A stretch of DNA of 56,137 nucleotides from Bacteroidota bacterium (GTDB taxonomy: Bacteria; Bacteroidota; Ignavibacteria; OLB7): assembly GCA_018266795.1 (NCBI GenBank), contig JAFDZV010000016.1, positions 1 to 56,137 on the forward strand, written 5' to 3'. Below the pieces are notes generated by a model. That model did no database searches. It was given only the letters and a program-made list of their open reading frames with translations, and was not told where the DNA came from. Positions 25,901 to 41,929 of this stretch are shown here, piece by piece. Both the position numbers and the translations under genes were made by a program. Position 1 is the first letter of the stretch. Every line of letters starts with the position of its first letter.

Positions 25901-26079
25901 TCCAGCACCGTCCCATTGAGCCGCGGTCCTGTGCTTCGTCCGATATCTCGTCATTGTGCAGGTACATCGATAACTTTCAGCCGCGCAGAGAATAGAACGA
26001 GCGTCGATTTCCTTCAAACCAAAAACGGCGGCAGAACAGGAAGTGTATATTCCCGCCTGACTACTTTCTCCACGAACTC

Positions 26080-26604
26080 ATGAGCGTTATCTCTTCCTGC
26101 CCCAACTGCGGTGCGGATGTCCCCTGGAATGCAGCTGCCTGCCCGGAGTGCGGCTCCGACGAAGCCGCCGGTATGGCGGAGGATACGGACTCCTACGGTG
26201 CGCTCCCGGCTGAGTACGAACCCGCGTACTCAGCCGGGAACGGGCGCGTGGACCATGGAGCGAAGAACACGCGCCGCTGGGTTCGCTACACGGCAGCCTT
26301 CCTGGTGGTGGCGATAGCCGTGCCGGCATGCATCTCCCTCTTCAACTCCGGAGTCGCGGTTACCGGCACTCTGCTGGTGGCAGCGCTGGCGGTAGGCGTG
26401 GTGATAGTGCTGCTCAAGGGTGGCGGCGGCACGCTGGGCCGCTTCTCCGGCAACGGCGCTCAGTATGAAACGCTGGTCCGCCGCGCCCGTGGCGACCGCG
26501 CCCGTGCGGAACGGCTGATCGAGTACGAACGGCGGCGCAACCCCTCCGCCTCGCGCGCAGAGCTGATCCGCGACGCCATTGACCGGCTGGCACGAGACCG
26601 GTGA
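26080..26604 (+). CDS. Zinc-ribbon membrane protein
   Basis: A 174-residue protein with an N-terminal zinc ribbon, CPNCG at residues 7-11 and CPECG at 21-25. An acidic Tyr-rich linker follows, then two transmembrane helices (about 68-88 and 93-110). The cytoplasmic tail (about 120-174) is highly basic, with ARGDRARAERLIEYERRRNP and SRAELIRDAIDRLARDR, which look like helices. No enzyme motif is visible. The start has the sequence TGTATATTCC about 30 nt upstream, a possible -10 region. Confidence 0.65.
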   Translation: MSVISSCPNCGADVPWNAAACPECGSDEAAGMAEDTDSYGALPAEYEPAYSAGNGRVDHGAKNTRRWVRYTAAFLVVAIAVPACISLFNSGVAVTGTLLVAALAVGVVIVLLKGGGGTLGRFSGNGAQYETLVRRARGDRARAERLIEYERRRNPSASRAELIRDAIDRLARDR

Positions 26605-26633
26605 GCGCTCACCGCTGACGTTCAGAGCGGCCA

Positions 26634-26749
26634 CGGTCGTGGAGAGAACGCCGCGATAGCACTGCCAACCGGCTGCGGTCGCGGAGAGAACGCCGCGATA
26701 GCACTGCCAACCGGCTGCGGTCGCGGAGAAAACGCCGCGACAACACTGG
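26634..26749. repeat. 42-bp tandem array containing REP-like palindromes
   Basis: Two complete 42-bp units starting at 26634 and 26676 and a partial third from 26718. Each has the core GGTCGCGGAGAGAACGCCGC, whose arms TCGCGG and CCGCGA can pair. The units are almost identical (gtg for gcg in the first, aaa for aga in the third). This is the same palindrome family as at 27333, 30366, 31316 and 41694. There are no variable spacers. Confidence 0.85.
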
Positions 26750-26784
26750 CCCATCATTCGCCGACGAAACCCTGAAGGCCCATC

Positions 26785-27438
26785 ATGAAGTTCCCCATGT
26801 TCAGGAATAGGAAGTGGATCGATCTCTATCCGGCGGTCGAGGATGTGTTCGCAGGCGATTACGATCAATGCCGCCGGGCGTTCTTCCCTGTCTGCTCGGT
26901 CGATCTTCGCGCGCTGGATTCCAGACTGCAGCAGAAACTTCATCTGGTGTATTTCAACAACGACCCCTATAACGAAAGCGCCCATTCACATTTCACGACC
27001 TACTGCAACCTCCATTCGATCGGCTTCGATGTCATCGGGCACAGATACCGGTTCCAGGCGGACTTTGGGTATTTCGACATGACACCCGACTGGCAGGAGC
27101 CCTACGAGCAGACATGCCAATCATATGCGGAGCTCAGGAAGAGATTGCGGGACACGGATTTCGAGTACCAACTGGGCGGGACTCCCAACTGGGTTCAGGA
27201 GGACGCGACACCGGTTGACCCCTCCGGGCGTCCGATGCGATTCATCATGCACTACTTCTCGATGTTCGACTTTCAGGATGGCTGTGCCAGGGATATCTAT
27301 CTGTTCTACAGCGCCGCGCACAACCTTCCACGGTCGCGGAGAGAACTCCGCGACAACACCACGTTCGGCCGCGATGGTGGAGAGAACTCCGCGACAACAC
27401 GACAACACGGCATCGTTCCGCGCTTTCACTTGATCTGA
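26785..27438 (+). CDS. Hypothetical protein with a repeat-derived C-terminus
   Basis: A 217-residue protein. The region QLGGTPNWVQEDATPVDPSG with the following PMRFIMHYFSMF resembles the core of DUF1963 (YwqG-like) proteins; this is a tentative match. From about residue 183 the reading frame runs through two REP-like palindromes, giving the basic tail RSRRELRDNTTF and GENSATTRQHG. This tail is therefore not ancestral and the original C-terminus was probably lost. The stop overlaps the 3' end of the convergent SUI1-type gene by 13 nt. Confidence 0.6.
   Translation: MKFPMFRNRKWIDLYPAVEDVFAGDYDQCRRAFFPVCSVDLRALDSRLQQKLHLVYFNNDPYNESAHSHFTTYCNLHSIGFDVIGHRYRFQADFGYFDMTPDWQEPYEQTCQSYAELRKRLRDTDFEYQLGGTPNWVQEDATPVDPSGRPMRFIMHYFSMFDFQDGCARDIYLFYSAAHNLPRSRRELRDNTTFGRDGGENSATTRQHGIVPRFHLI
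27333..27394. repeat. REP-like palindromes inside a coding 3' end
   Basis: The first copy is a perfect inverted repeat GTCGCGGAG-agaa-CTCCGCGAC form at 27333-27354. The second (about 27371-27394) is a decayed copy, with GGTGGAGAGAACTCCGCGAC. Both are followed by AACAC. They belong to the window-wide family and are translated as part of the upstream gene. Confidence 0.85.
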
Positions 27439-27767
27439 TATCCGAGCTTCTTCAGCATCGCGATGATGGCGGTTCGATGGTCCCCCTGAATGGCGATCGC
27501 GTTATCGAGCACGGTTCCACCTGCACCGCACAACCGCTTCAGCTTGCCTGCGATTTCCTCCAGTTCATCGGGGGTCGATTGAAAGCCGGAGACGAGTGTC
27601 ACAGTCTTTCCGCGCCGGTGCTTCGAGTCCAGCCGCACGTCCAGCTTCTGCGGCCTGCCGTCGTACCCCTTGCGCGGCGCGGCGGTAGGCGCCTGTTCCT
27701 TCAACGCCTTCTTCTCCGATTCGGAGAGAAGGCTGCCGAGATCATCGAGCGAGGTGAGTTTTGCCAT
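27426..27767 (-). CDS. SUI1/eIF1-like translation factor (YciH family)
   Basis: A 113-residue protein homologous to archaeal and eukaryotic eIF1 and to E. coli YciH, which influence start-codon fidelity at the small ribosomal subunit. The core is visible as RRGKTVTLVSGFQ, LKRLCGAGGTVLDNAIAIQG and the closing helix AIIAMLKKLGYQIK. The N-terminal 30 residues are a short helical and linker region. The start at 27767 is preferred over an upstream in-frame ATG because the protein then begins with the conserved MAKLTSLDDLGSLLSE. Confidence 0.88.
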   Translation of the reverse strand: MAKLTSLDDLGSLLSESEKKALKEQAPTAAPRKGYDGRPQKLDVRLDSKHRRGKTVTLVSGFQSTPDELEEIAGKLKRLCGAGGTVLDNAIAIQGDHRTAIIAMLKKLGYQIK

Positions 27768-28170
27768 GGCGGAAATATAGGGGTAACGCTCCGTGCCGGC
27801 GTTGGGTAGCATCTCGGTTTGAGCGCCAACACTGTCGTGTCATGCTGAGAACATCAACCTCGACTGCGGCAAGGTATCCATCGGCGATGCCCCACCTGGG
27901 GTCTTCGCGAAACGAGCGCAGCGAAGACGCGGCGATCTGTGCGGGCCGGTCTCGCGTGGCTGGTTCGGTTCGATACGTTGAGCGGGAGAGGTCGCCACGC
28001 ACCGCCTCCGGCAGTGCTCGCGACGACGATCGATGGACGAGATAACACCGACGTCCCCCGCCGCTGCGTTGCTACTGATCGAACGCGTCGGCTCCGTAGA
28101 TTACCCCGGTGCTCGCCGACATTCGCCGGCAGCGAGCGTATCCCACGGCACAGATATCATTGAACACTGC
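27768..28170. other. Intergenic stretch, no gene seen
   Basis: This 403-nt gap contains TGTCATGCTGAG at 27837-27848 and CGCAGCGAAGACGCGG near 27918. These resemble the ends of a common dispersed palindromic element but do not form a clear hairpin here. I see no convincing reading frame. Confidence 0.3.
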
Positions 28171-28581
28171 ATGGCTTCCCAACTCAACGGCCTCTTCGTG
28201 ATGCTCGTCGCCCTTGGCGGGCTGCTCATTCTTATCGGTGCGTTCGTCTTCTTCCGCATGCGGCGCCCTGCGGGGCGAACGATGCGATCGTCCGGCGTGG
28301 TGATCGATCAGGAGGAAGACGAGAGCGATGGGAGCCCGGTCTACTCCCCCATCGTGAAGTTCACCGCGCACGATGGAACGGAGACAACGTTCACGGATGA
28401 GTTCGCCAGTTATCCGGCGCTCTACAAGGTCGGCGAGCGGGTTGATGTGATGTACGATCCGGGAAACTTCCGCAACGCCCGCATTGCATCCGGGCTTCGG
28501 CGGCATCTGCTCGCCATCATCATCCTTGCCCTCGGCATCGGGCTCCTCGCCGTCGGGCTGTGGCTGAAGCCGCACGGGTGA
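28171..28581 (+). CDS. DUF3592 membrane protein
   Basis: A 136-residue protein with two transmembrane helices (about residues 8-29 and 112-131) flanking a small outer domain. The domain shows the DUF3592 pattern: a strand with ATTGVV-like RSSGVVIDQE, then VYSPIVKFTAHDG, and YKVGERVDVMYDPGNFRNARI. Function is unknown for the family. The start at 28171 begins with the first helix; the longer in-frame extension upstream has no membrane features. Confidence 0.8.
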   Translation: MASQLNGLFVMLVALGGLLILIGAFVFFRMRRPAGRTMRSSGVVIDQEEDESDGSPVYSPIVKFTAHDGTETTFTDEFASYPALYKVGERVDVMYDPGNFRNARIASGLRRHLLAIIILALGIGLLAVGLWLKPHG

Positions 28582-28900
28582 TCGGTCTCACGCGCCACGC
28601 CCATGCGACTCCGCACAAACCCGAACGCGCGAAGCCTCCATACCCTTTGCGCATGGTGGGGACCGGATCGCGCCCCTCATTGGTAACCGCCGACTCTCAC
28701 CGGGTTGGTGTGCACTGAGGGACCGTGCCGCATCCGGAGGCGGAATGGAAATCCCATCCATCATGGAACTCTCCGGCATGAACGGAGTGCTCGATGCATC
28801 CAATGGTTGCTTTACGTCGGAATACCACTGAGCACGGATTGCTCACTCCGGCGCCCGTACCCTGCCACCGGTGCTCGCCGCGGCAGGAGCACCCCCTCCG
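28582..28900. other. Intergenic stretch upstream of the cysteine-rich gene pair
   Basis: A 319-nt gap with no convincing gene. It leads into the conserved promoter and leader of the first 14-cysteine gene. Confidence 0.3.
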
Positions 28901-29063
28901 GTACACCATGATGTACTCCCCACGCCTGCCTGACACCGGTAACTTGCCGGCGCAAACCAACCAACCTTCTCCGGGATTCGAACCGGCAGTCACCTCGTGA
29001 CGGTGCCGCAATTCGGGAGAAGTGTTCCGGCATGAAGGTTGGTTCACATCATCAGGAGGATAC
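28901..29063 (+). promoter_or_regulatory. Conserved promoter and structured leader, copy A
   Basis: A 16-bp imperfect palindrome GTACACCATGATGTAC (28901-28916) is followed after 23 nt by TAACTTGC (28940-28947), a TAnnTTTG-like box. The leader of about 110 nt then contains AACCAACCTTC, later answered by GAAGGTTGGTT, with inner arms CTTCTCC and GGAGAAG and CGGCA and TGCCG. It ends in an AGGAGGA ribosome site just before the ATG at 29064. The same order is found at copies B and C. No other copy was noticed in the window. Confidence 0.65.
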
Positions 29064-29498
29064 ATGTCTACTCGATGTTCGCTTCCCGTGCGCGCCGCCG
29101 CCTTCATCATCGCGATGGCAGCACTGTTTCTTGCACCATCGGCCGGCAGGGCGCAGGTGATCGATTGCAGCCGCTGCGATCACTTCACGTTCGCCGTCAG
29201 CGCCAGCCTCAACTGTTCGGTCACCATCTGCTACGTTCCTGCTCCGATCGGCGATCCTCTCTGCCAGACAGTCGCTCCCGGCGGCAGCGTCTCGATCCCC
29301 TGCAACGTCTCCCGCGTGTGGGTGAACACCTGCTCCGGGAATTACTCCCTGATCCCGGCAAATGTAGCTTCAACCTGCAGCCAGCCCCTGAAGTTCGCGG
29401 ACGGCTGCTGCGGGCACATCTGCAATGTGCCGAGCATGGATGTCTGCACCAGGCTCGAGGTGCAGCCCCTCCCCTGCGCCACGCCCGGCTGCCCGTAG
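29064..29498 (+). CDS. Secreted 14-cysteine protein, paralogue 1
   Basis: A 144-residue exported protein of unrecognised family. The signal peptide ends near SAGRAQ; the mature chain of about 113 residues has 14 cysteines, 12 % of its length. Landmarks are CSRCDHFTF, VTICY, VWVNTCSGNY, KFADGCCGHIC and a final PCATPGCP. All 14 cysteines are kept in the paralogues at 29788 and 42956, so they probably form disulfides or bind metal after export. It has no lipobox, no T9SS tail and no known toxin motif. It shares promoter and leader with its paralogues and seems to arise from a tandem duplication with a period of 725 nt. Confidence 0.8.
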   Translation: MSTRCSLPVRAAAFIIAMAALFLAPSAGRAQVIDCSRCDHFTFAVSASLNCSVTICYVPAPIGDPLCQTVAPGGSVSIPCNVSRVWVNTCSGNYSLIPANVASTCSQPLKFADGCCGHICNVPSMDVCTRLEVQPLPCATPGCP

Positions 29499-29625
29499 AA
29501 ACAGGAAGAACACAAACGATGCCGCGCGGCCGGAGCCCTTGCTCCGGCCGCCGCGTTCCCGCTCCGGAGCCCACGATGGAATGCTCTCCCCTCCGCGCCA
29601 CGTACACAGATGGGCACTCCCTCCG

Positions 29626-29787
29626 GTACACCATGATGTACTCCCCCACGCCTACCGGACACCGGTAACTTGCCACACAACCAACCAGCCTTCTCCGGGA
29701 TTCGAACCGGCAATCGCCTCGTGACGGTGCCGCAATTCGGGAGGAGTGATCCGGCATGAAGGTTGGTTCACATCATCAGGGGGATTC
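29626..29787 (+). promoter_or_regulatory. Conserved promoter and structured leader, copy B
   Basis: The palindrome GTACACCATGATGTAC lies at 29626-29641 and TAACTTGC at 29666-29673, 24 nt apart. The leader keeps AACCAACC and GGTTGGTT as outer arms. The inner arm changes GGAGAAG to GGAGGAG, which still pairs with CTTCTCC through one U-G pair. The ATG at 29788 follows 114 nt after the TAACTTGC box, close to the 116 nt of copies A and C. Confidence 0.65.
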
Positions 29788-30219
29788 ATGAACACTCGAT
29801 GTACGCTTCCCGCGCGCCTTGCGGCGCTTGTGCTTCTGCTCGCGGCTCTCGTTCTGGTTCCGGCCGCAGGCCACGCCCAGACAATCAATTGCAACACGTG
29901 CGACCACTTCACCTTCGCGGTAAGCCCCAACCTCAACTGCGCGGTCACCATCTGCTACTCCCATTCGCAACTGGGGCCGGTGATCTGCGAGACCGTCAAG
30001 CCCGGCACCAGCATCGTCATCACCTGCCCGATCTATCAGGCATGGGTGAACACCTGCTCCGGCCGGTACTTCCTCGTGCCCGGAGCGGCAGCCAATTGCA
30101 CGCCGGACCTGAAGTTTGCGGCGGACTGCTGCGGGCACATCTGCAATGTGCCGAGCGCTGATCTCTGCAGCCGGCTGGAGGCGCAGCCCGTACCATGCGC
30201 AACGCCAGGCTGCCCGTGA
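29788..30219 (+). CDS. Secreted 14-cysteine protein, paralogue 2
   Basis: A 143-residue exported protein, tandem paralogue of the gene at 29064. The signal peptide is rich in Leu and Ala and ends near GHAQ. The mature chain opens TINCNTCDHFTF and keeps all 14 cysteines with the same spacing, including FAADCCGHIC and PCATPGCP. The loops between the cysteines differ, so selection appears to act on the cysteine framework. Its own promoter copy suggests separate transcription from paralogue 1. The start is fixed by the position of the shared leader and a GGGGG-rich ribosome site. Function unknown. Confidence 0.8.
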   Translation: MNTRCTLPARLAALVLLLAALVLVPAAGHAQTINCNTCDHFTFAVSPNLNCAVTICYSHSQLGPVICETVKPGTSIVITCPIYQAWVNTCSGRYFLVPGAAANCTPDLKFAADCCGHICNVPSADLCSRLEAQPVPCATPGCP

Positions 30220-30365
30220 TGCGAGCGCCCCGGGCACATCATGATTGAGAAGACGATGCTTACGTCGGGCCGGAGTTCCACTCCGGCCCGACCTGTTTCC
30301 ACCCCGCCGCAGACGCCGCATCGGCTACCGACGGATTGCTCCTGGCGAAGCTCCAAGCCCGTGGC

Positions 30366-30610
30366 CGTCGCGGACCGACATCCGCGGCAACGGATAACGG
30401 GGTGTTGCGGCTACGCGTTCGTCGCGGAGGAAACTCCGCGACTACGAACTGCAAACGACCCCGCGACTACGAACTACAAACGACTCCGCGACAACAAACT
30501 GCCGGATGGCAATGCTGCAGACAGGACGCTACGCCGATACGTCATGGCTCTGTTCGCACGTGCTGCGCGGCGGTTCATCCTATCTGTAGCACGCCGCGTA
30601 CAACGGCCCG
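30366..30610. repeat. Composite REP/BIME-like module upstream of the RAYT gene
   Basis: Three sub-elements in order. Part 1 (30366-30418) has CGCGGA/TCCGCG arms and then GCAAC/GTTGC. Part 2 (30421-30500) has GTCGCGGAGGAAACTCCGCG plus two shorter ACTCCGCGACTACGAA-like pieces. Part 3 (30511-30610) starts CTGCAGACAGG and ends CCTATCTGTAGC, arms that can pair. Modules of the same order occur at 31316-31512 and in part at 31513-31651, on the other side of the transposase-like gene. The 501-nt gap 30220-30720 holds nothing else I can identify. Confidence 0.8.
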
Positions 30611-30720
30611 GGCGGCAGGCGTTCGGCCGGAGTTCTCTCCGGCCGAGTGCGTATCATCCGTGAGGAAGGAAATGCAGCAACGACACTGTACATTCGCAGT
30701 CGGATTCCCATCCGCATACG

Positions 30721-31284
30721 ATGCTCTCCCCGAAGCCGGAGCATCCCATGTCACGAAGATATCGGCACTATCCCGACAGCGATTATCTCTACTTCATTAC
30801 GTCCACTGTCGTTGAGTGGATCCCGCTCTTCCTCTCGCATCGGCACTGCGATATCCTTATCGATGCGTTTACGTATTGCCGCCTCAACAAGGGACTGTTT
30901 GTGCACGCGTACGTGCTGATGCCGAACCACATCCATGCAATCGTTTCGTCGGAACCAGGCTCTGCGCTCCCAGGCATCATGCGCGATTTCAAGCGCCACA
31001 CCTCCACTCGTCTGCGGCAATGTCTGCTTCAGGAGAATTCGCAGTTTTTGTTGCGAACACTTCGAATCGCGAGCAGCTTGCGGTACAGGCAGTTGTGGCA
31101 ACCAGGATATGGTCCGGTTGCCATTTACACACGGATGTTTCTTCGCCAGAAGTTGAATTATCTGCACAACAATCCTGTACGCAAGGGCTATGTGCGAACG
31201 CCGCAGGACTGGCTGTACTCCAGCGCCTATGATTATTTCGAGGATAGGATGGGAGTGATGGAGATCGACCGATTGGAACTGTAG
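30721..31284 (+). CDS. REP-associated tyrosine transposase (RAYT, Y1 transposase family)
   Basis: A 187-residue single-strand nuclease of the IS200/IS605-like Y1 family. The HUH motif is HIH at residues 70-72 in VLMPNHIHAIV. The candidate catalytic tyrosine is Tyr147 in KLNYLHNNPVRKGYV. The opening SRRYRHYPDSDYLYFITSTV and the ending WLYSSAYDYF are typical of RAYTs. The start could be 30721 or the ATG at 30748. RAYTs are single-copy, usually vertically kept proteins thought to move REP palindromes, cutting near the foot of the hairpin. Here palindromic modules lie on both sides (30366-30610, 31316-31651) and elsewhere in the window, so this gene is the obvious mover. Confidence 0.9.
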   Translation: MLSPKPEHPMSRRYRHYPDSDYLYFITSTVVEWIPLFLSHRHCDILIDAFTYCRLNKGLFVHAYVLMPNHIHAIVSSEPGSALPGIMRDFKRHTSTRLRQCLLQENSQFLLRTLRIASSLRYRQLWQPGYGPVAIYTRMFLRQKLNYLHNNPVRKGYVRTPQDWLYSSAYDYFEDRMGVMEIDRLEL

Positions 31285-31315
31285 CAGCAAGGACGTTGCA
31301 TGGCGCGCTCCGAGC

Positions 31316-31651
31316 TCGTTGCGGATCAACATCCGCGGCAACGGATAACGGGATGTTGCAGCCATGCGTTCGTCGCGGAGGAAACTCCGCGACTACGAAC
31401 TACAAACGACTCCGCGACTACGAATCGTGAGGATGGCGATGCTACAGACAGGGCGCTACGCCGATACGTCATGGTGATGTTGGTTCCTCTCTGTAGCGCA
31501 GCGTGTGCAACCCTCTCTCGTCGCGGATCAACATCCGCGGCAACGGATAACGGGGTGTTGCAGCCATGCGTTTGTCGCGGAGGAAACTCCGCGACTACGC
31601 ACTACAACAGACTCCGCGACTACGCACTACAACAGACTCCGCGACAACAAA
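31316..31651. repeat. Two REP/BIME-like modules downstream of the RAYT gene
   Basis: A full module (31316-31512) repeats the order seen upstream: GCGGATCAACATCCGCGGCA, then CGTCGCGGAGGAAACTCCGC, then GCTACAGACAGG answered by CTCTCTGTAGC. A second, partial module (31513-31651) repeats the first two parts and carries a triplicated ACTCCGCGACTACGCACTAC-like piece. All point the same way as the upstream module. The array fills the convergent gap between the RAYT gene and the RND permease gene. Confidence 0.85.
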
Positions 31652-31673
31652 CGAGCGCGAGATTCCGGACGAG

Positions 31674-34600
31674 TCACTCCGCAGCATCGCCGACCGTTGG
31701 TTCGCCCGGTTCGGTGTTTTCACCGTTGCCGGATCTACGTCCACCGATCAATCGGTAGACCATCGGCAGGCCGAAGAAGAGCAGGAGGCTCGACATCGAG
31801 AACCCTCCGATAACGGCGATCGCAAGCGGCTGCTGCATCTGCGCTCCGGCGCCGATCCCGAGCGAGAGCGGAAGCAGCGCCAGTACGGCCGCCATCGTGG
31901 TCATCAGGATCGGTCTGCGCCGAAGCCTGCTCGCGCCGATCAGCGCGCGATCCAGCGTCATTCCACCGGCACGAAGATGGTTCATCTCATGCAGAATGAA
32001 GATGGCGTTCTCCGCGACGATGCCGATCACCATGATGGTTCCCACCATGCTGGAGATGTTCAGCGTCACCCCCGTAATCCAGAGCGCACCAACCACGCCG
32101 AGGAGCGATAGAAGATTGATGATGAGAATGGATACGGGAGCCGAGAACTCGCCGAACTCGATCAGCAGAACGATGAACACAAGCCCGAACGCCGCAAGCG
32201 CCACCAGCACCAGCCCCCGGAACGATTCCTGCTGCGTCTGATAGAGCCCGCCGTACTCGATCGATATCCCCGCAGGAATCGTCAGGTGTCCAGCCAGCCT
32301 GCTCTTGATGTCGGCGATCGTGCTCCCCAGATCCCGTCCGGTGATCCGGGCGGTAACCGCTACCAGACGGCGCAGCCCTTCGCGATGCAGCTCCGGCTGG
32401 CCGGTGCTCTTCGTGATCGTAGCAATCGACGTCAACGGAACGGCGATCCCCTGCTGATTCACCAGCCGCACTCCGGAGAGCAGGTCGATGTCGTGCCGGT
32501 ACTCATCCGGGTAGCGGACACGGATATCCACCAGCTTTTCTCCCTGCAACACGGTGGAGCCGACGCTGCCGCGCATGATGGTCTCCAGCTGTGCAGCCAC
32601 CTCGGTAGCGTCCAGTCCGGCTCTGGCTGCGCGCTCCGGATCCAGGTTGACAACGAACGACGGCCCGGTGATCACGATGCCGCTGAACGCATCCACAACG
32701 CCGGGCACGTTCTCGATCAATCGTGTGATCTCCTCCGCCTTCGCCTGAAGGATCCTGCTGTCGGAGCCGAAGATCTTGATTTCGATCGGGGAAGGAGAGT
32801 TGGTGAGATCGCCGATCACATCCTGCATGAGCTGTCCGAAGTCGATGCGGAGCGCCGGCTGTGAGGATTCGATCTTCGTCCGAACCTCATCGATCACCAG
32901 ATCGATGGAGCGCGACCGCTCCTTTCTGAGCTTCACCAGGTAATCTCCCCTGTTCGGCTCGGTCAGGAAGAAGCCCATCTGTGTGCCGGTCCTGCGGGAG
33001 TAGGATTCAACCTCCGGCGTCTTCATCAAAATCTGCTCCACCTGGGTCAGCATCCTGTTCGTTTCATCGAGCGATGTTCCGGGCGGCGATTCGTAATCCA
33101 GCACGAACGATCCCTCATCCATATCCGGCATGAAGCCGCTCCCCACCTGCGAGTAGACCAGACAGGTGGCGGCGAACATCACGAGTGCGAACGGGATCAC
33201 CGTCCACGAATGCCGGAGAAGCCATCCGAGCCACCGCTCGTACCAGCCTCCGGTACCGCTTCTCCGCTCCTGCCGCTTCAATTCCCGTTCGATATCCCTC
33301 TCGCGGATCACGACCGACGCCAGAAGCGGGGCAAGGGAGATCGAGAGAAGGAACGACAGCACGAGGGCGAAGACCATCGTGATCGACAGGGAGGCGAAGA
33401 AGGCGCCGGTGATCCCGCCGAGAAATGCCAGCGGGATATGAATCACGAGCGTACTGGCCGTGGAGCCGATGATAGCCGGCATCAGCTCGTGAAGAGAGAG
33501 CCGGGCGGCCGCGCCGAACGCACTCTCCGCCACCCGCACATCATCGCGCACCGTGTTGAACCGGGCGAAGATGTGCTCGATCACCACGATCGAATCATCG
33601 ATGATCAGCCCGACTGCGGCAGCCATTCCACCAAGCGTCATGATGTTGATCGAGAAGCCGACGGCGTTCAGACAGAGAAGCGTTGCCGCGATGGTCACCG
33701 GAACAACCACGGCGATCACGATCGTCACGCGCCAGCTCCGGAGGAATACCAGCAGCACGATCATCGCCAGCACAACACCGATCACGATGCTGTCGCGCGT
33801 GCTGGAGATGGAACTGTTGATGAAGTCCGATTGATCGTAGAAGTTCTCGAAATGGACATCGGAGGGGAGCCGAATCCCGGCGAGAACGCTGTCCACATCC
33901 GTGCCGATCTGCACCGTGCTGCCGGCCGGCTGCCGGATCACGTTGATCAGCACCGCCGGGTGCCCGTGCGCCGTGGTCCTGATAAGCTGATCGGCAACCG
34001 AGGGAGAAACCACCGCCACATCGGAGAGATGCACCGGCACGCCATTGCGTGTCGCCACCACCACCGCTCCGATATCGTTCACCGATGCCAGCCGCTCCAC
34101 AACCAGCGAGAGGTACATCTGATAGTTGTTGTCCAGGATTCCCGTGGAGGCGACGATGTTGCTCCTGGCGATGGCGTCCGAGACCTGACGGACCCCCAAC
34201 CCATACCCCGCAAGCTTTTCCGGGTTCACCGTCACGCGGTATTCCCGCACATCGCCGCCGGTGATCTCCACCCTCGCAATCCCCTTCACCTGAAGCAGCG
34301 CCGGACGAATCGTATAGAGCGCCAGATCGCGCAGCTCCACCAGGCTTCGCCTGTCCGACGTGAGACTGTACCCCTGAATCGGGAACACCGAGACCCGCAT
34401 CTGCTGCGCCTGGATCGCCACTGTAGCCGGCAGCACATTGCGGACATCCTGCAGCCTCCCCTGAAGCGATTGCAGCGTCTCCTCCACGTTCGCTCCCCAG
34501 TCCAGATCCACGGAGATCTCCGTGGACCCACGGCCGGTGATGGACCGGACCAGCCGCACGCCCTGAAGCGAGCTTGCCAGCCCTTCCAGCGGAACCGTCA

Positions 34601-34787
34601 CCTCGGACATCATGCGCTCCGCGGGCTGCTCGCCGTTATCGGCCAGGATCACGATGCGGGGAAAGGTGATGTCCGGAAAAAGCGACACCGGCATGGAGGT
34701 CATCACCGCAATGCCTGCCGCCGCGAGCAGCGTCACCGTGAAGAAGAGCGCCTTCCTGCGACTGACTATCTGGCCGTAGAAGTTCAT
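31674..34787 (-). CDS. RND-family efflux pump inner-membrane permease (AcrB/MexB-like)
   Basis: A 1037-residue proton-driven exporter with the usual pattern: one helix at the start (LFFTVTLLAAAGIAVM), a large periplasmic loop, helices 2-6, a second loop and helices 8-12. Helix 4 has GLIIDDSIVVIEH with an Asp pair as in drug-type RND pumps, not the DFGxIVDG pattern of heavy-metal (HME) pumps. PVSLFPDITFPRIVI near residue 33 and GVVDAFSGIVITGP are typical. It is the last gene of a tripartite set; the adaptor gene ends 6 nt upstream. Substrate unknown: drugs, detergents or metals. The linked two-component system suggests it responds to an envelope or toxicant signal. Confidence 0.93.
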   Translation of the reverse strand: MNFYGQIVSRRKALFFTVTLLAAAGIAVMTSMPVSLFPDITFPRIVILADNGEQPAERMMSEVTVPLEGLASSLQGVRLVRSITGRGSTEISVDLDWGANVEETLQSLQGRLQDVRNVLPATVAIQAQQMRVSVFPIQGYSLTSDRRSLVELRDLALYTIRPALLQVKGIARVEITGGDVREYRVTVNPEKLAGYGLGVRQVSDAIARSNIVASTGILDNNYQMYLSLVVERLASVNDIGAVVVATRNGVPVHLSDVAVVSPSVADQLIRTTAHGHPAVLINVIRQPAGSTVQIGTDVDSVLAGIRLPSDVHFENFYDQSDFINSSISSTRDSIVIGVVLAMIVLLVFLRSWRVTIVIAVVVPVTIAATLLCLNAVGFSINIMTLGGMAAAVGLIIDDSIVVIEHIFARFNTVRDDVRVAESAFGAAARLSLHELMPAIIGSTASTLVIHIPLAFLGGITGAFFASLSITMVFALVLSFLLSISLAPLLASVVIRERDIERELKRQERRSGTGGWYERWLGWLLRHSWTVIPFALVMFAATCLVYSQVGSGFMPDMDEGSFVLDYESPPGTSLDETNRMLTQVEQILMKTPEVESYSRRTGTQMGFFLTEPNRGDYLVKLRKERSRSIDLVIDEVRTKIESSQPALRIDFGQLMQDVIGDLTNSPSPIEIKIFGSDSRILQAKAEEITRLIENVPGVVDAFSGIVITGPSFVVNLDPERAARAGLDATEVAAQLETIMRGSVGSTVLQGEKLVDIRVRYPDEYRHDIDLLSGVRLVNQQGIAVPLTSIATITKSTGQPELHREGLRRLVAVTARITGRDLGSTIADIKSRLAGHLTIPAGISIEYGGLYQTQQESFRGLVLVALAAFGLVFIVLLIEFGEFSAPVSILIINLLSLLGVVGALWITGVTLNISSMVGTIMVIGIVAENAIFILHEMNHLRAGGMTLDRALIGASRLRRRPILMTTMAAVLALLPLSLGIGAGAQMQQPLAIAVIGGFSMSSLLLFFGLPMVYRLIGGRRSGNGENTEPGEPTVGDAAE

Positions 34788-34793
34788 GCGTCC

Positions 34794-35813
34794 CTATCTG
34801 GCTACGGTTACGTGCGTGGAATCCGCCAGCGAGTAGTGCCCCTCGACGATCACCTGCATCCCCGCATGCAGCCGGTCGCTCCGGATCTCCACAATGGAGT
34901 CGCGCGCAGAGCCAAGCTCCACCGGAACGATGTGCGCCAGCGAATCCGCGCCCACGATGACCACGGAGTTGGTGTTGTCCTCGTCGTTTCTGAGCACGGC
35001 CTTCTTCGGCACCAGCATCGCCTCCGGATGATGGCCGGTGACGATGGACGCCGTGCCGGCCATGTCGGTCTTGAGCAGGCTGAAGGTGGATGTGGGAAGG
35101 TGATTGAACCGCAGTCGGACGCGCACCGTCTGGCTCTGCGCGTCCGACTGCGGGCTGATCGCGGCCACGATGGCCTCCAGTTCCTCGTCCGGAAGCGCCT
35201 GAAGCCGTATCCTGCATGCCGATCCCAGCCGCACCCTGGCGATCGCGCTCAACGGCAGATCGGCCACGAAGACGAGCGTGGAGAGATCCACGATCGAGAA
35301 CATCTCCGCCCCCTCCGCGACACTCTCCCCCTGGTTGGCGTTCTTCGTTGCAACGATGCCGCCGATCGGCGCACGCACCTGCGCGCTGTTGTCGGCAGAC
35401 GCAGCAAGCTGGAGCATCCGCTGCGCCTCCGCCTTCTCCTCGGGCGTACGTGCGGCCGCCAGCAGAGCGTTGGCGCCGTTGATCTGCGCCTGCGACTCCT
35501 TGGTCCGGATCACTGCAACCACCGCCCCGTTCCCAACCGATTCCCCCTCCACAACTTTCAGGCTCAGCACCGTTCCCGCAACGGGAGCGTAGAGCTTTTC
35601 CGTGCGAAGCGCCTCGATCTTTCCCACGGCATTCACCACGGACACCGCGTCGCCCTGCTGGATGCCGGCGATCTTCACGGTCACCATCGGAGGAGGAGTC
35701 TTCTCCTCCCCGGCCTGTTCCTGTCGGGAGCATCCGCCAACGGCCAGCATCAACGCGATGGCTCCCGGAAGCCGGCACCGCCATCGGTTCATAATCTTCA
35801 TTGCCACATTCAT
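34794..35813 (-). CDS. RND efflux periplasmic adaptor (membrane fusion protein)
   Basis: A 339-residue periplasmic bridge between pump and outer-membrane channel. The N-terminus is a lipoprotein signal with lipobox AVGGC. The biotinyl-like half motifs are APVAGTVLSLKVVEGESV and RAPIGGIVATKNANQGESV; a short helical hairpin (about residues 105-140) lies between them. The beta-barrel and membrane-proximal parts follow (RVRLGSACRIRLQALP, then MLVPKKAVLRNDEDN). It overlaps the TolC-like gene by 4 nt and stands 6 nt before the pump gene, so the three are one operon. Confidence 0.92.
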   Translation of the reverse strand: MNVAMKIMNRWRCRLPGAIALMLAVGGCSRQEQAGEEKTPPPMVTVKIAGIQQGDAVSVVNAVGKIEALRTEKLYAPVAGTVLSLKVVEGESVGNGAVVAVIRTKESQAQINGANALLAAARTPEEKAEAQRMLQLAASADNSAQVRAPIGGIVATKNANQGESVAEGAEMFSIVDLSTLVFVADLPLSAIARVRLGSACRIRLQALPDEELEAIVAAISPQSDAQSQTVRVRLRFNHLPTSTFSLLKTDMAGTASIVTGHHPEAMLVPKKAVLRNDEDNTNSVVIVGADSLAHIVPVELGSARDSIVEIRSDRLHAGMQVIVEGHYSLADSTHVTVAR

Positions 35814-37156
35814 GGAGTTGTTAGGCGTTCGAGTCTTGCAATCAGCACCTGAAGCTCCGCAAGCGTCTGAAGTTCCGCCAGCCTGTTGTCGGCCAGAAGC
35901 TGCTGTGCGTCCAGCACCTCCAGCGCCGAGCCGCCGCCGCCGGCATATTTCGATTTGGTCAGCAGGAAATTCTGCTCAGCGTCCGCTATGGTTGCGCGGA
36001 TCAGCACCAGCCGATCGCGCCCCCGGGCTATTCGCGCATGCAACTCCACGTTCTGCCGCATCAGCGAACGCCGAAGGAGATCGGCCTGCAGCCGGAGTGT
36101 GTCCACGGCAATCTGCCGCTGCTCGACACGCAGATCGGTGATCCCCCAGTTCAGGATCGGAATATCCACGGTCACTCCGGCAGACACGCCGACAACACTG
36201 GACCGCTCGCTCCGAGGCAGCGTGATATTCTGCACGGAGGTCAGTGCGCCGGCATCTGCAAGCAGACTGACGGTCGGGCTGTTCTCCCGCCGCGCCAGCT
36301 CCACTTCGATCTGGCTTCGCCTGACGGCGAGATCGACGGCGGCGAGATCGGGGTTGGCCGCAGGGTCGAACATGCCCACGTCCGCCAGTGAGTCCAGACG
36401 CCCGGCCACGGAAACCAGCGTATCGAATGGAAGGCCGATCAGCTCCGCGAGCGCGAACCGTGCGGTATCCGCCGCATTGTGCGCATCGTCCAGCGCCAGC
36501 CTGGCGTCCGAGAGGCGGACACGGGTTTTCAATACATCGGTGAGCCCCACGAGGCTCCCGGCATACATCGTCTCCACCAGCCGGAGATAGTCCGCAAGCT
36601 GCTGGACATTCACCTCCCTGAGAGCCACTTCATCACGCGCGTGCATCGCGTCATTGAACGCCAGCTCCACGTTCAATCGCAGATCGCGCTCCATCAGCAG
36701 CCGCTCCCGGCCGATGAGGTCGATATCGATCCCGCTCTGGTCCAGACGGAGATCGCGCCGGCCGCCATCGTAGAGAAGATGCTCGATCATTACCTGTGCA
36801 CCGATCTGCCCGCCGTTGGTCAGCGCGGGATCGTAGCCGAACGAAGGGAATGTGGGAGCATAGACGGCGTTGCCGTGGAAGCTGACCCTGGGAAGGCGCT
36901 GCTGGATCAGCTCCCGGCGGGATGACTGCGCTCCGGTAAGCCCCCTGTCGGCAATACCGAATCGCGGATTGTTCTCCCGTGCGATCGCCAGGGCACGATC
37001 CACCGTCAGCACGGTCTGCGCGCTCGCAACCGTACCGGTCACGACCGTATCGGTCACGACCGCAATGGCCGCGAACAGCAGGACGTACGAGAGGAGAAAT
37101 GGATTCGAAGATGATCGCACGATCGGGATCGGAAGTAGTGTTGGGACTCGTTGCAT
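35810..37156 (-). CDS. TolC-family outer-membrane efflux channel
   Basis: A 448-residue outer-membrane factor. After a signal peptide (hydrophobic LLSYVLLFAAIAVV, cleavage near ASAQ) it shows the TolC duplication. Each half has long amphipathic helices (for example VDRALAIARENNPRFGIADR and ILNWGITDLRVEQRQIAVDTL) and short strand segments (PRVSFHGNAVYAP, PTVSLLADAG). It would form the trimeric exit duct for the pump. It follows the PepSY gene by 84 nt and overlaps the adaptor gene by 4 nt. Confidence 0.9.
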   Translation of the reverse strand: MQRVPTLLPIPIVRSSSNPFLLSYVLLFAAIAVVTDTVVTGTVASAQTVLTVDRALAIARENNPRFGIADRGLTGAQSSRRELIQQRLPRVSFHGNAVYAPTFPSFGYDPALTNGGQIGAQVMIEHLLYDGGRRDLRLDQSGIDIDLIGRERLLMERDLRLNVELAFNDAMHARDEVALREVNVQQLADYLRLVETMYAGSLVGLTDVLKTRVRLSDARLALDDAHNAADTARFALAELIGLPFDTLVSVAGRLDSLADVGMFDPAANPDLAAVDLAVRRSQIEVELARRENSPTVSLLADAGALTSVQNITLPRSERSSVVGVSAGVTVDIPILNWGITDLRVEQRQIAVDTLRLQADLLRRSLMRQNVELHARIARGRDRLVLIRATIADAEQNFLLTKSKYAGGGGSALEVLDAQQLLADNRLAELQTLAELQVLIARLERLTTP

Positions 37157-37240
37157 CGATCTCTACACTGCAAAGCGGGCGGCTCCAGGGACGGAACCAC
37201 CCGCTTCGGTGCTCTCGACGCCCGCCACACAACAAGCCGG

Positions 37241-37588
37241 CTACCGGCTCTTCTTCACATGTCGTTGTTTCTTCTCGGCCTGCGCTTCGTTCTTTTCGTC
37301 GGCCTTCGTTTCATTCTCCGTCCTGGTCACCTTTCCGGTCATTGCATCCACCCACACCTCCTTGATGCCGCTGCCGGTTTTGATATCGAACGAATAAATG
37401 AACTGGCCATCCTCGTGCTCGAGTTCGGCACTCTTGATCCTGCCGTCCGGCACCGCCTGCTGCGCAGCTGCGCGCGCCTGCTTCATGGTGACCTTGGGCT
37501 TTTGTGCGCTGGCCGGAACCGACGCAGAGATCATGACTGCGACTGCACATGCAAGCGCCAGACCGATTGATTTCATGGGGGATTTCAT
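37241..37588 (-). CDS. Exported PepSY-domain protein
   Basis: A 115-residue periplasmic protein. The start at 37588 is fixed by GGAGGCAGG just upstream and gives a signal peptide (GLALACAVAVMISASVPASA). One PepSY domain follows: VTMKQARAAAQQAVPDGRIK, then LEHEDGQFIYSFDIKTGSG and KEVWVDAMTGKVTRTE. The tail is Lys/Glu-rich. PepSY proteins often sit beside two-component systems and act as periplasmic inhibitors or sensors. Its place between the kinase gene and the efflux genes suggests it tunes signalling for the pump. Confidence 0.87.
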   Translation of the reverse strand: MKSPMKSIGLALACAVAVMISASVPASAQKPKVTMKQARAAAQQAVPDGRIKSAELEHEDGQFIYSFDIKTGSGIKEVWVDAMTGKVTRTENETKADEKNEAQAEKKQRHVKKSR

Positions 37589-37756
37589 TCCTGCCTCCTG
37601 TATGATTGATTCCTGTTGTTTCCGGTTCTGCCTGCGGGAAGTTTCCGTCACTCCCGATCAGGTGCATTGCGAGAGAACCGGATGCAATGTAGGAGCCTCA
37701 TATGGAGACAGGATGAAATTCCCCGAAGCCTGGAAAATGAGATGAATATTCCCAGC

Positions 37757-39148
37757 CTACCGAATCGCAGATGCGGGAAATCGCAGAGGTAATTCCAGCG
37801 TGAAGCAGGCTCCCCCGGTCTCCACGTTTCGCGCGCGCACGCTTCCGCCATGCAGTTCCGCAACGCGCTTCACGATGGCGAGCCCAAGCCCGTATCCTTC
37901 GCCACGAGCCCTCGATTCATCCGCGCGATGAAATCGCTCGAAGATGTAGGGAAGGCTTGTCGCACCGATGCCGGGCCCATTGTCCGTGATGGTAATGCGG
38001 GCAACGGCGCCTACATTCTCCAGCACGATCGACACCTTCCCTCCATCATTGGAATACTTGATGGCATTGTCGATCAGGTTGATCAACGCACGCTCCAATT
38101 TCTCCTCGTCCCCTTCCGCCTCGAAAGCTTCTGCGATATGCGGCGCAAGCTCTATCCCACGGTTCTGAGCCAGCACCTGCATACGATTGACCGCGCGCAT
38201 CACGATCTCATCGAGGCGGACAACCGCAGTGTTCAACGGACGATGGGGGCTGTCCAGGCGAACCAGCAACAGGAGCGACTGCGTCAGCAACGCCATGCGG
38301 TCCACCTCGCCGAGCGCGATGCCGATACTCTCCTTCACCTCGGCGATGTCGTTGCTTCGCTCGCCGAACTCCAGTTCCGTCTTGATGATCGTCAGCGGCG
38401 TACGGATCTCGTGCGATGCATCGGCGATGAACTGCCGCTGCTGCTGGAATGCCGAACCGATCCGCTCGATCATGGCGTTCAGGGTCTCGGCGAGATGGCG
38501 GACTTCATCCCGGGTTTTCGGTACCGCGATGCGCTGGTCCAGGTTCGCCGCGCTGATTCGATTCGCCGATGCCACCATCGAGGAGACCGGGCGGAAGCCG
38601 GCGCGGGTGATAACGAACGCGGCGATTGCTCCCGCAATCAGAGCGAGGGGGATCACGGTGAGGAAGATCAGCTTCAGGCGCTCTGCATCCTCGCGCACTT
38701 CATCGAGCGGCGCGGCGATGCGCATGATCATGCCGTGATTGTTCTCTACATCGACCGGACCGGTGCGCACTCGATATTCTCTATCGCCGATACGAGCGTT
38801 CACCGTGCGGGCCTGGTCCGGAGCCAGCCGCCCGCCGGCAACGGGAACGGCCGCAAGGAGCGAATCCGGGAGAAGCATCCGCCCGGCGGTGTCCATGATC
38901 TGCAGCCGAATGCCGTGCAGGCCGCTGGTGGAGAGGGTGCTGATATCCTGAACGGAAGGGAACTCCCTGTTCCGCATCTCCTCCTCGATCTCCGTGGAGA
39001 CCTTGTCCGCATGGCTCTCCAGACGGGCATCGATCTTCTCGATGGCAGACTGCTCCGTGCTGTGATAGATAATGAAGGCAAACCCTATCAGCATCACTCC
39101 GAAGACGAGCGTGTACGCAAGAACGATCCTGGTGGTAATGGTAAACAC
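37757..39148 (-). CDS. Membrane sensor histidine kinase
   Basis: A 463-residue kinase partner of the response regulator that ends directly before it. It has two transmembrane helices (about 9-29 and 165-187) around a periplasmic sensor of about 135 residues. A HAMP segment with ANLDQRIAVPKTRDEV follows. The H-box is FIADASHEIRTPL, the N-box INLIDNAIKYS, and the ATP-lid motifs are DNGPGIG, IFERFHRAD and GYGLGLAIVKR. The start is GTG at 39148, immediately after the regulator stop. The layout resembles CusS/CzcS and other efflux-linked kinases, but the ligand is not evident. Confidence 0.93.
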   Translation of the reverse strand: MFTITTRIVLAYTLVFGVMLIGFAFIIYHSTEQSAIEKIDARLESHADKVSTEIEEEMRNREFPSVQDISTLSTSGLHGIRLQIMDTAGRMLLPDSLLAAVPVAGGRLAPDQARTVNARIGDREYRVRTGPVDVENNHGMIMRIAAPLDEVREDAERLKLIFLTVIPLALIAGAIAAFVITRAGFRPVSSMVASANRISAANLDQRIAVPKTRDEVRHLAETLNAMIERIGSAFQQQRQFIADASHEIRTPLTIIKTELEFGERSNDIAEVKESIGIALGEVDRMALLTQSLLLLVRLDSPHRPLNTAVVRLDEIVMRAVNRMQVLAQNRGIELAPHIAEAFEAEGDEEKLERALINLIDNAIKYSNDGGKVSIVLENVGAVARITITDNGPGIGATSLPYIFERFHRADESRARGEGYGLGLAIVKRVAELHGGSVRARNVETGGACFTLELPLRFPASAIR

Positions 39149-39826
39149 TCAGGGCCTCGCGTCGGAAAAAATGTATCCCGCGCCACGCACCGTATGAATG
39201 AGCGGCTGCTCGAATCCACGATCGATCTTCTGCCGCAGGAACTTCACAAACGACTCGATGACATTGCTCCGCTGCTCGTAATCCATTCCCCAGAGATGCT
39301 GTGAAATCACCTCTCGAGAGAGCACGGTATTGGGCCGGGTAAGGAACAATTCCAGAAGTGCAAACTCCTTCGCCGTCAGCGAGATCTCCTTCCCGTCGCG
39401 AAATGCCCTGTGGGAGTTCATATCGAGCCGCAGCCCGTATTTCTCGATCACCGACGAACGGACCGTTGTTCCCCGCCGTGCCAGCGATCGTATCCGGGCC
39501 AGCAGCTCGGGAAAATGAAACGGCTTCGCGAGATAGTCATCGGCACCTGAATCGAGCCCGCGCACCTTGGCGTCGACATCGTCCAGGGCAGTGAGCATCA
39601 GGATGGGAGTGTCAACATTGCTCCGCCTGAGTTCGATACAGGTGGTCCAGCCATCCTGCTTCGGCAGCATCACGTCGAGGATGATGACGTCGTACTGGTT
39701 GACGAATGCGAGATCCTCGCCGGTGACGCCGTCGGAAGCGATATCGAACGTGTAGCCGGCGGCCTTCAGGTGCTTCCCGATCGCAGCCGCCACCTTTACA
39801 TCATCTTCGATCAGGAGTATTCTCAT
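39149..39826 (-). CDS. OmpR-family response regulator
   Basis: A 225-residue transcription factor. The receiver domain has the acidic pair Glu7/Asp8/Asp9, phosphoacceptor Asp51 in VIILDVMLPKQDG, a Thr in MLTALDD and Lys in DYLAKPFHF. The winged-helix effector domain covers about residues 125-222, with LTAKEFALLELFLTRPNTVLSR and HTVRGAGYIF. It is first in the operon with the kinase, PepSY protein and efflux genes and probably activates them. The start ATG at 39826 follows a gap of about 590 nt. Confidence 0.93.
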   Translation of the reverse strand: MRILLIEDDVKVAAAIGKHLKAAGYTFDIASDGVTGEDLAFVNQYDVIILDVMLPKQDGWTTCIELRRSNVDTPILMLTALDDVDAKVRGLDSGADDYLAKPFHFPELLARIRSLARRGTTVRSSVIEKYGLRLDMNSHRAFRDGKEISLTAKEFALLELFLTRPNTVLSREVISQHLWGMDYEQRSNVIESFVKFLRQKIDRGFEQPLIHTVRGAGYIFSDARP

Positions 39827-40418
39827 GACCAGAATCTAAAGGTTCCTGACAAAAGGGTCTCGAACGTCGTCAACGACCGTTGACGACCATGGGCCTGGTT
39901 CTTCGGACGCTCGCCTTCGGCTCGCCGAGAGTTCCTGGTTCGTTGCGGGAAGACGCCGAGCGGATGAGGGCAACGGCCTGTCGTGTCGGGAACTCTAAAC
40001 CGGACGTTGTCCAATCGCTGAGAGCGAATGGCGACGACCAGTGGAAGACAACACGGGCCTGGAAGTTTGTGACGTCGGCATCGGCTCCGCTCATCAGGGA
40101 ACTCTCTGCGGCCAACACGTGGCTCACCGTGTGAGCTCCGGCAGACATCGGCAGGCCGGTGGGTCTCCGGAGGAGGCACCAATCGGTAGAAGGTCTGTCG
40201 CAAGCGTTCTGAAGCTCCATTTGGAGCGTCCCGGTCATCACGATCGGGGGGACGGTCCGCTCCCGGCGGAACTTGACGATTCGCGGCACGGACCGGAAGC
40301 AACCGATGGGCGCCCCCTCCCGGGAGCCGATCAACGACGGCGTGCCATGCCATCACCACGGCATCGTGGCCATACCTGATTGGACAACGTCGAGCTAAAC
40401 AGACGTGAAGGGAGCATG
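39827..40418. other. Intergenic stretch upstream of the response regulator
   Basis: A 592-nt gap. A minus-strand frame of 154 codons (39870-40334) is open but has no recognisable domain, no clear ribosome site and a composition like a non-coding frame; I do not call it. The promoter of the two-component operon should lie near its left end, but no convincing box was found. Confidence 0.35.
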
Positions 40419-41462
40419 CTACCGTGCGTAGTCCAACACCATGAACGATCCGCTTACGATCTTCGGCCGGGGATGGGGCTCCGTGGTGCCGGAGGCAGGT
40501 TCGAACCGTGCCGTGGGAAGATAGAGATGGTGCGTAACCGGGTCGAGCGCCATCGTGCGTGCGCCTCGCTCGGTTGCGACATTGTCGATCACGGTAAAGC
40601 GGTCGGCGGAATCCTCGTGAACTACCGTGAGAGTCCCGTCGCCATTGGACGCGAAGGCGAAGCCCGTGGCGGGATCGAAGGCAGTGGCATCGACACCGGC
40701 TCCGATCGGAAGTGACGCGACGATGCTCCCGTCGTCCGCATTCATCACCACCATCAGTTTGTTGTGGCAGCCTGCGAACAGGCGCCGATGCGCGGGGTCG
40801 ATAGCGAGCCCGGTTGGCTCCTCTCCCGTTCCGAGTTTCCAGTAGCGGCGCACCTTCAATGCCTTCACATCGATCTCTCCGATCTCGCTGCGATCCTCCA
40901 CATTGAAGTAGACGTGGCCCGCGCCGTCGGAGACGGCAAACTCCGGTGCTCCCTCCAGGGGTATCGTGCCGGCAACATCTCCCGTTGCTGCAGTGATCAC
41001 CGTAACATCCGTGCTCTTGCCATTGAACACGAAGACATCTCCCGATGCTCCATCGTACAGAATCGCATCCGGCTTCCCGCCGGTCTTCACCTCCTTGAGC
41101 ACCTTCAGAGTCTGAAGATCGAAGATCGAGCAACTGTTGCTCCGGCCGTTGCTGGTAAAGCCCCGCCCCAGCGCCGGAGCCAGCGCCACGCCGTGGATCC
41201 CCGCCGTGTTGGCAACAGTCCCCACCACCGAATCGTTCGCGGTGCTGAGGACCTCCACGTGATCGCCGTGACTCAGATACAGACGCTTCGCAATCGGGTC
41301 AACGGTCGCATAGTCCCACCCTCCCTCTCCGCCAATCGTGACGGTGTTCACCCGGCGATATCCCGATCCCGGCTGAGCGAACAGCAGAAAGGGAACGTTG
41401 ATGAGGATGCAGATCATGGCAAGCAACCTGAGGGTTGCGAAACTGGCAACTCTACTCCGCAC
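40419..41462 (-). CDS. Exported YncE-like beta-propeller protein
   Basis: A 347-residue protein made of repeated propeller blades. Typical pieces are ATVDPIAKRLYLSHGDHVEV, GIHGVALAPALGRGFTSNG, PTGLAIDPAHRRLFAGC and ARTMALDPVTHHLYLPTARF, matching the YVTN/YncE family. Such proteins are periplasmic or secreted and of varied or unknown role. The start is uncertain. GTG at 41462 gives a normal signal peptide with Arg residues before MICILINVPFLLFA; ATG at 41417 would drop them. Longer in-frame extensions upstream run into REP-like repeats and look non-coding. Confidence 0.78.
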   Translation of the reverse strand: MRSRVASFATLRLLAMICILINVPFLLFAQPGSGYRRVNTVTIGGEGGWDYATVDPIAKRLYLSHGDHVEVLSTANDSVVGTVANTAGIHGVALAPALGRGFTSNGRSNSCSIFDLQTLKVLKEVKTGGKPDAILYDGASGDVFVFNGKSTDVTVITAATGDVAGTIPLEGAPEFAVSDGAGHVYFNVEDRSEIGEIDVKALKVRRYWKLGTGEEPTGLAIDPAHRRLFAGCHNKLMVVMNADDGSIVASLPIGAGVDATAFDPATGFAFASNGDGTLTVVHEDSADRFTVIDNVATERGARTMALDPVTHHLYLPTARFEPASGTTEPHPRPKIVSGSFMVLDYAR

Positions 41463-41582
41463 GGAATCACCTATTGGGGTTATGTGTCTGAAACGCTTCT
41501 CGTGGAGCGGCAAGGTACAAGGCGAAGATGGAGGCAGGATGAAAATGGAATCCGGTGATGGACGGCACACGATCGGGCCCTG

Positions 41583-41770
41583 TAGCGATGCTACAGACAG
41601 GGCGATCTGTTGATGCGTGATGGCGCTGTTGGCTACGTACGGCGCCGCGGCCCATCCTATCTGTAGCGCAGTGCGTACACCCTCTCCCAGGTTCGTCGCG
41701 GAGAAAACTCCGCGACAACGGATAGTGGAGATACGGGTTGGTCGCGGAGCGAACTCCGCGACAACAAACT
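41583..41770. repeat. REP/BIME-like module upstream of the propeller gene
   Basis: Part 3 of the module comes first: GATGCTACAGACAGGGCG (about 41587-41604) is answered by CATCCTATCTGTAGCGCA. Two copies of part 2 then follow, GTCGCGGAGAAAACTCCGCG (from about 41694) and GTCGCGGAGCGAACTCCGCG (from about 41742). This is about 10 kb from the RAYT gene, showing that the family is dispersed. Confidence 0.8.
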
Positions 41771-41851
41771 CGCGACGACGAACGGTGGAAGACCGCACAT
41801 TGCAATTCTCACCGGCCGCAACAACGGGCGGTGCAATCCTGTTCGGGCAAC

Positions 41852-41892
41852 AAAAAATCCCCGGCCTGGAATGAAATCCGGACCGGGGAATA
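41852..41892 (-). terminator. Rho-independent terminator
   Basis: On the minus strand a CCCCGG/CCGGGG stem (plus extra A-T pairs) is followed by ATTTTTTG. It lies about 40 nt beyond the stop of the minus-strand gene at 41930. This is the most canonical intrinsic terminator in the window. Confidence 0.8.
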
Positions 41893-41929
41893 GGAACGTG
41901 TCGCCCGCAGTACCAGTATCGCTCTCCCG

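Follow-up and report, generated by a model that had tools for sequence, protein, structure and literature searches.

Canonical group 2/3 REPtrons, such as those of E. coli, Stenotrophomonas and Marinomonas, pair an HuH/Y1 RAYT with hairpins bearing a GTAG-type foot on their 5' side; the RAYT lies between REPs, which occur in tens or more of intergenic copies and form inverted BIME/REPIN pairs (PMC8266576). Groups 2 and 3 cleave single-stranded REPs at CT or CA and use the GTAG foot for binding and as a guide, A and G of GTAG picking CT, in the guide model, and T and G picking CA (PMC8266576). The GTAG and CGTC REP superfamilies consist of tagged intergenic stem-loops in mosaic associations, linked to RAYTs in the case of GTAG and without a RAYT in that of CGTC; inverted pairs are favored, and most genomes have few head-to-tail dimers or none (Di Nocera et al. 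2013, PMC3733652). Reports of GTAG REPs come from Proteobacteria, Cyanobacteria, Chloroflexi and PVC, and none from FCB phyla (PMC3733652). A further, little-studied Bacteroidetes group of RAYTs, subclass 2.6 of Quentin et al. (2018, PMC6006769) or group 5 of Bertels, comprises proteins near 179 aa with NH[LIV]H, WQ, Y-x-H-N-N-P and SS-tail motifs and an insert before beta4. Their median HuH-Tyr spacing is 82, against 58–67 in most subclasses, and they are remarked not to be conserved at the positions of E. coli E100, H101 and R104 (PMC6006769). Repeated hairpins beside these genes, with copies elsewhere in the genome, are already published as atypical companions of subclass 2.6 RAYTs, described as weakly structured and without GT[AG]G (PMC6006769); this description concerns the known members and is no criterion for placing a protein.

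We analyzed a 56,137-nt stretch of a Bacteroidota genome (GTDB class Ignavibacteria, OLB7; contig JAFDZV010000016.1), hereafter the window. It holds a locus that is like the canonical REPtrons in its HuH/Y1 RAYT, a foot 5' of the hairpin that resembles GTAG, the position of the RAYT between REPs and the tens of intergenic copies, and like the GTAG and CGTC superfamilies in its tagged intergenic stem-loops and mosaic associations. It departs from the former in that its RAYT belongs to another group and is without the E100/H101/R104 contacts, and from both in that its neighboring REPs are all head-to-tail; unlike CGTC REPs, they flank a RAYT. We consider it likely that this is a REP-RAYT system of group 5 (TnpAY1 subclass 2.6), probably acquired horizontally, and we infer from the family, fold and flanks of the RAYT that it mobilizes the REPs. 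The features of the locus are as follows.

26636–26741, minus strand: three tandem REP hairpins with a period of 42 nt
27333–27395, minus strand: two tandem REP hairpins, in the 3' end of the ORF at 26785–27438
30262–30294: GGCC-GGAGT palindrome GTCGGGCCGGAGTTCCACTCCGGCCCGAC, which belongs to a second dispersed family of palindromes
30366–30499, minus strand: left module, REP dimer (30367–30388 and 30421–30442) with truncated units; foot GTAG on the minus strand
30504–30605: third element, left copy, a long-loop inverted pair CTGCAGACAGG/CCTATCTGTAG
30623–30646: related palindrome TCGGCCGGAGTTCTCTCCGGCCGA, just upstream of the RAYT gene
30721–31284, plus strand: RAYT (TnpAREP) gene, 187 aa; NF047646, Pfam Y1_Tnp, fold match 4er8
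31317–31450, minus strand: first right module, REP dimer (31318–31339 and 31372–31393) with a truncated unit at 31408
31431–31512: third element, right copy, between the two right modules
31519–31652, minus strand: second right module, REP dimer (31520–31541 and 31574–31595) with truncated units at 31610 and 31635
41585–41682: third element, distant copy
41695–41762, minus strand: two tandem REP hairpins (41695–41716 and 41741–41762), foot GTTG

The initial annotation had recognized a Y1-type protein with an HIH motif and a candidate Tyr between same-orientation copies of one module, and both points held. The protein encoded at 30721–31284 on the plus strand has NHIH at residues 69–72 (HIH at 70–72) and Tyr147 in YLHNNP, and His70, His72 and Tyr147 are invariant in an alignment with ten relatives. 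The NCBIfam profile NF047646 (REP_Tyr_transpos) matches it with 115.2 bits (cut-off 80) and Pfam Y1_Tnp with 31 bits. Its AlphaFold model (pLDDT 91.5) has as top PDB match 4er8, E. coli TnpAREP with a bound REP hairpin (E=4e-9). An alternative start at 30748, which gives 178 aa and fits the relatives better than that at 30721, is the likely one. With W126Q127 and YSSA, the protein carries the subclass 2.6 set of NH[LIV]H, WQ, YIH[QN]NP and SS tail, with Leu for Ile in YLHNNP, and it has the long HuH-Tyr spacing that stems from the alphaC-beta4 insert, a region occupied in the model by a predicted helix (99–109 in the numbering from 30748); the H72-Y147 distance is 75 residues, against the subclass median of 82. 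In a tree built without published 2.6 sequences, it joins Bacteroidota-dominated RAYTs, apart from the E. coli protein and from the second RAYT of its own genome. Judged by its motifs and relatives, then, the protein appears to be a RAYT of the Bacteroidetes group. In the alignment, the E. coli foot contacts W94 and Q95 are retained, and E100, H101 and R104 are replaced by P, V and Y; as these positions are not conserved, the foot may be read differently. The gene has a GC content of 0.52, against 0.61 for the window, and a GC3 below that of 97% of predicted genes, which suggests a foreign origin.

The minus-strand sequence of the REP is GTTC-GTWG-TCGCGGAG-TTNN-CTCCGCGA-C-GAAC, predicted to form a 9-bp stem with a 4-nt TTNN loop, an outer stem of 4 bp and, in the foot, a bulge of 3 nt (predicted stem stability about −20 kcal/mol). 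Three REP-dimer copies flank the RAYT on both sides within the 134-nt modules, which are 78–90% identical and share one orientation. The module had been taken for three different hairpins in fixed order, a description that we revise: compared by sequence, its first two hairpins are divergent members of one REP family, making the module a head-to-tail REP dimer, and the third is CTACAGACAGG...CCTATCTGTAG with a loop of about 65 nt, found in the 5.97-Mb genome only at 30504, 31431 and 41585, all within the window. A three-part module as the dispersed unit was ruled out, since its third element occurs only these three times and dispersed REP cores stand in other mosaics. The TCTGTAG end motif of the third element recurs near other REPs. 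Among the further module copies that had been proposed, those at 26634 (three units) and 27333 (two) are REP cores only, and that at 41583 does contain the third element together with two REPs. Truncated units, consisting of foot and left arm, adjoin the module hairpins every 25 nt. The plus strand of the REP reads CGTC, and we set aside membership of the CGTC-tagged class, in which published stems start almost always with A/T pairs, tails are CCA-like and no link to RAYTs exists. Rfam gave no match over 26000–42500. The 3' end of the ORF at 26785–27438, which has no Pfam match above cut-off, is composed of two REP hairpins, and REP insertion may have supplied its C-terminus.

Pattern matching across the genome located the REP at 42 forward places with at most two mismatches, against 0 for a reversed-pattern control, and at 64 with at most three, against 3; we estimate about 40–60 copies, nearly all apparently intergenic. 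Within 446 kb selected around REPs, where a simple home-made codon model called 78% of bases as coding, 37 of 40 REPs are intergenic. That the repeats recur elsewhere in the genome was thereby borne out, and the "hundreds of copies with one RAYT" anticipated by the initial annotation shrank to some 40–60 in a genome with a second, unrelated RAYT that has REPs of its own. An intergenic 11-mer census recovered only the REP core. Two subfamilies are represented among the REP places. Subfamily A mostly has a GTTG foot and a GAAC outer arm; its 42 copies include 23 with GTTG and 3 with GTAG, all three RAYT-flanking copies having GTAG and most others GTTG. Subfamily B is ATCGCGGAGTAAACTCCGCGAT, usually with an upstream GGCCTGAGT...ACTCAGGCC palindrome. 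Another palindrome family, GGCCNGAGTNNNACTCNGGCC, has 31 forward places in this genome and 0 in the congener; its members often lie about 20 nt from subfamily-B REPs and share the GAGT..ACTC apex of REPs on a different stem.

Pairwise alignments of dispersed subfamily-A copies stop about 37–39 nt left of the hairpin, and RAYT-flanking and dispersed copies have in common a core of about 30–36 nt only. The flanking REPs, with their GAAA loop and GTAG foot, are of a different subtype from most dispersed copies, which are therefore not simple copies of them. Neighboring oriented units are head-to-tail in all 11 cases, with no REPIN/BIME-type inverted pair among them. Arrays often form ladders of truncated units with a full hairpin at the end, most clearly at C2:182995-183107 (genome G000; L002:1390-1522), where truncated units 22 nt apart precede one full hairpin. 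As a gauge of replication-strand bias, REP orientation relative to local GC skew was split 30 to 26, a tally of no informative value, since many palindromic matches are counted on both strands. Many copies are diverged and there are only about 40–60, so the activity of the system may lie in the past.

The single congener genome (G001, 95% complete) has no RAYT match and no REP; repeats in a relative without the RAYT, which would have told against the REP-RAYT reading, thus did not turn up. That reading, already proposed in the initial annotation, is upheld by family profile, fold, genome-wide intergenic copies and the absence of REPs from this RAYT-less congener. At most one mismatch, 394 other genomes of the phylum yielded one REP-like place, against 29 in the window's own genome. 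An RND efflux operon at 31746–41545 is 80–82% identical in the congener, and on either side of it the homology stops next to the REP blocks; these blocks bracket the operon, with synteny breaking at 31652 and 41585. Screening 1.4 Mb of the congener for empty sites gave one closely comparable interval, at C44:345846, where two conserved segments are separated by 232 nt in the window's genome and by 34 nt in the congener, no junction being resolved to the base at such divergence. Left of the RAYT locus, the tandem paralogues at 29022–29498 and 29746–30219, within a 724-nt duplication, encode a small Cys-rich, secreted-looking protein with no Pfam match above cut-off; related sequence lies at 42947–43390 and also in the congener (C31).

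For a wider view of the group, 80 group-5-like RAYT loci were analyzed together with loci of relatives. An exact repeat of at least 15 nt is common to both 700-nt flanks at 67 of about 90 loci (the maximum in shuffled flanks is 15), and perfect hairpins are eightfold denser within 300 nt of a group-5 RAYT (2.31 per kb) than beyond 700 nt (0.28). The first three stem bases contain GTC or GTT in 37% of hairpins near the gene, against 11% for shuffled stems and 8% for distant hairpins. Before any tree was built, we had assigned the hairpins in the flanks by eye to six stem types; on a tree of 92 group-5 RAYTs, hairpin type changes 9 times, against a shuffled mean of 29.1 (0 of 200 shuffles as low), and so follows RAYT phylogeny. 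The GTTCC type occurs in Ignavibacteriota, Planctomycetota and Hydrogenedentota as well as in the window's own class, a distribution that kinship of the hosts does not by itself explain. Hairpins of the GTTCCCAA type abound in several of the genomes in which the RAYT itself has a flank of this kind (51, 34, 19 and 8) and are few in three others (2–3); there are 49 in G045 and 24 in G018, each with several RAYTs, and 0 in G000, G036 and the genomes of loci L094, L119 and L104. Neighboring hairpins in the wider group have the same orientation in 24 cases, 11 of them from one locus, and opposite orientation in 9. Two loci deserve mention in their own right: an Ignavibacteria RAYT (L103), a good comparison case, has the hairpin CGTTCCCAATCTCCCGATTGGGAACG some 14 times within 500 nt, and its genome contains 51 hairpins of the GTTCCCAA type; at a group-5 RAYT elsewhere (L148), the two flanks share an exact direct repeat that is 200 nt long or more.

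Taken together, these patterns permit a tentative proposal, which we regard as somewhat less probable than its negation: that group-5 RAYTs have a recognition mode of their own, in which REPs are near-perfect hairpins that often start with paired GTC/GTT and in the present system have a relaxed GTWG foot, each RAYT lineage is tied to its own stem sequence, and amplification in this genome is head-to-tail instead of through inverted REPINs. In the group-5 REP-RAYT reading that we favor, the RAYT would bind the REP in single-stranded form, folded into a hairpin with a 9-bp stem and a 4-nt TTNN loop, with the GTWG foot serving as guide, and would cut nearby dinucleotides via Tyr147 at an H70/H72 metal site and rejoin the ends, a cycle that would spread REPs into intergenic gaps. 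Ladders, with foot and left arm every 22–25 nt and the full hairpin last, would be products of recurrent joining at the foot or of slippage at the hairpin during replication.

The strongest competing account, which we judge unlikely, though worth weighing, is that REPs spread by replication slippage, recombination or another nuclease, the RAYT merely sitting among them, perhaps domesticated for another role or as a late arrival. The differences in loop and foot between flanking and dispersed REPs would fit it, as would the resemblance of truncated ladders to slippage products and the location of some dispersed copies within longer duplications of 200–500 nt. It leaves unexplained, however, that REP and RAYT are jointly absent from the congener, that hairpin type tracks the RAYT tree in group 5, and that hairpins cluster at RAYT genes.

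It is very improbable that the REPs are instead mobilized by the second RAYT, even though that gene (C9:73717-74097; locus L022, G000 C9:72217-75597) scores 87 bits, above the cut-off. It is flanked on both sides, in inverted orientation, by a different REP, GTAGGCGCACGTCTTCAGCGTGCGCC, which has dispersed copies of its own (10 places in the genome), some with compensatory stem changes (CACG..CGTG to CAGG..CCTG), and its 3.4-kb locus contains no GTCGCGGAG hairpin. The protein, with motifs DHLH, WQ and YILNNP, groups in our tree with E. coli TnpAREP, both being long branches that may attract each other. The two RAYTs thus have different REPs, as reported for RAYTs sharing other genomes (PMC6006769).

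Equally improbable, in our estimate, is the view that the hairpins serve as conserved regulatory structures of an ordinary kind, for example terminators or mRNA stabilizers, and do not move. Most REPs do lie 3' of genes, in convergent or same-direction contexts, and their stems are stable at about −20 kcal/mol; but they carry no consistent T-run, are missing from the congener despite the 80–82% identical operons next to them, and in one orthologous interval the block is lacking. That the locus is an IS200/IS605-type insertion sequence with subterminal hairpins is scarcely credible: the HuH/Y1 superfamily is shared and an IS200 TnpA profile matches weakly, but at 25.8 bits against a cut-off of 55, the Tyr motif is of the YxxNP type and not Y---Q, the gene has a single copy in its genome, and no near-identical multicopy gene-bearing elements with fixed ends were found there.

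We retain the reading of a group-5 REP-RAYT system. The suggestion that it represents a distinct one holds in part: subclass 2.6 RAYTs with atypical hairpins had been described (PMC6006769), and the present system departs from that description in the sequence of its REP, in the GTWG foot, in the strength of the stem and in the head-to-tail arrays. What is new is the REP family itself, with a GTWG foot and a strong stem in a subclass described without both, together with its ladders of head-to-tail units and the association of hairpin type with RAYT clade across the tree. Published tests cover RAYTs of groups 2 and 3 (PMC8266576), and the papers that we found contain no group-5 biochemistry; the window offers a defined group-5 enzyme with a putative substrate, and for its natural foot variants, GTAG and GTTG, the guide model predicts a switch of cleavage dinucleotide. 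The survey provides evidence of RAYT-REP co-diversification in a group described without a canonical REP. If the head-to-tail amplification is real, the inverted REPIN would not be the sole unit able to multiply.
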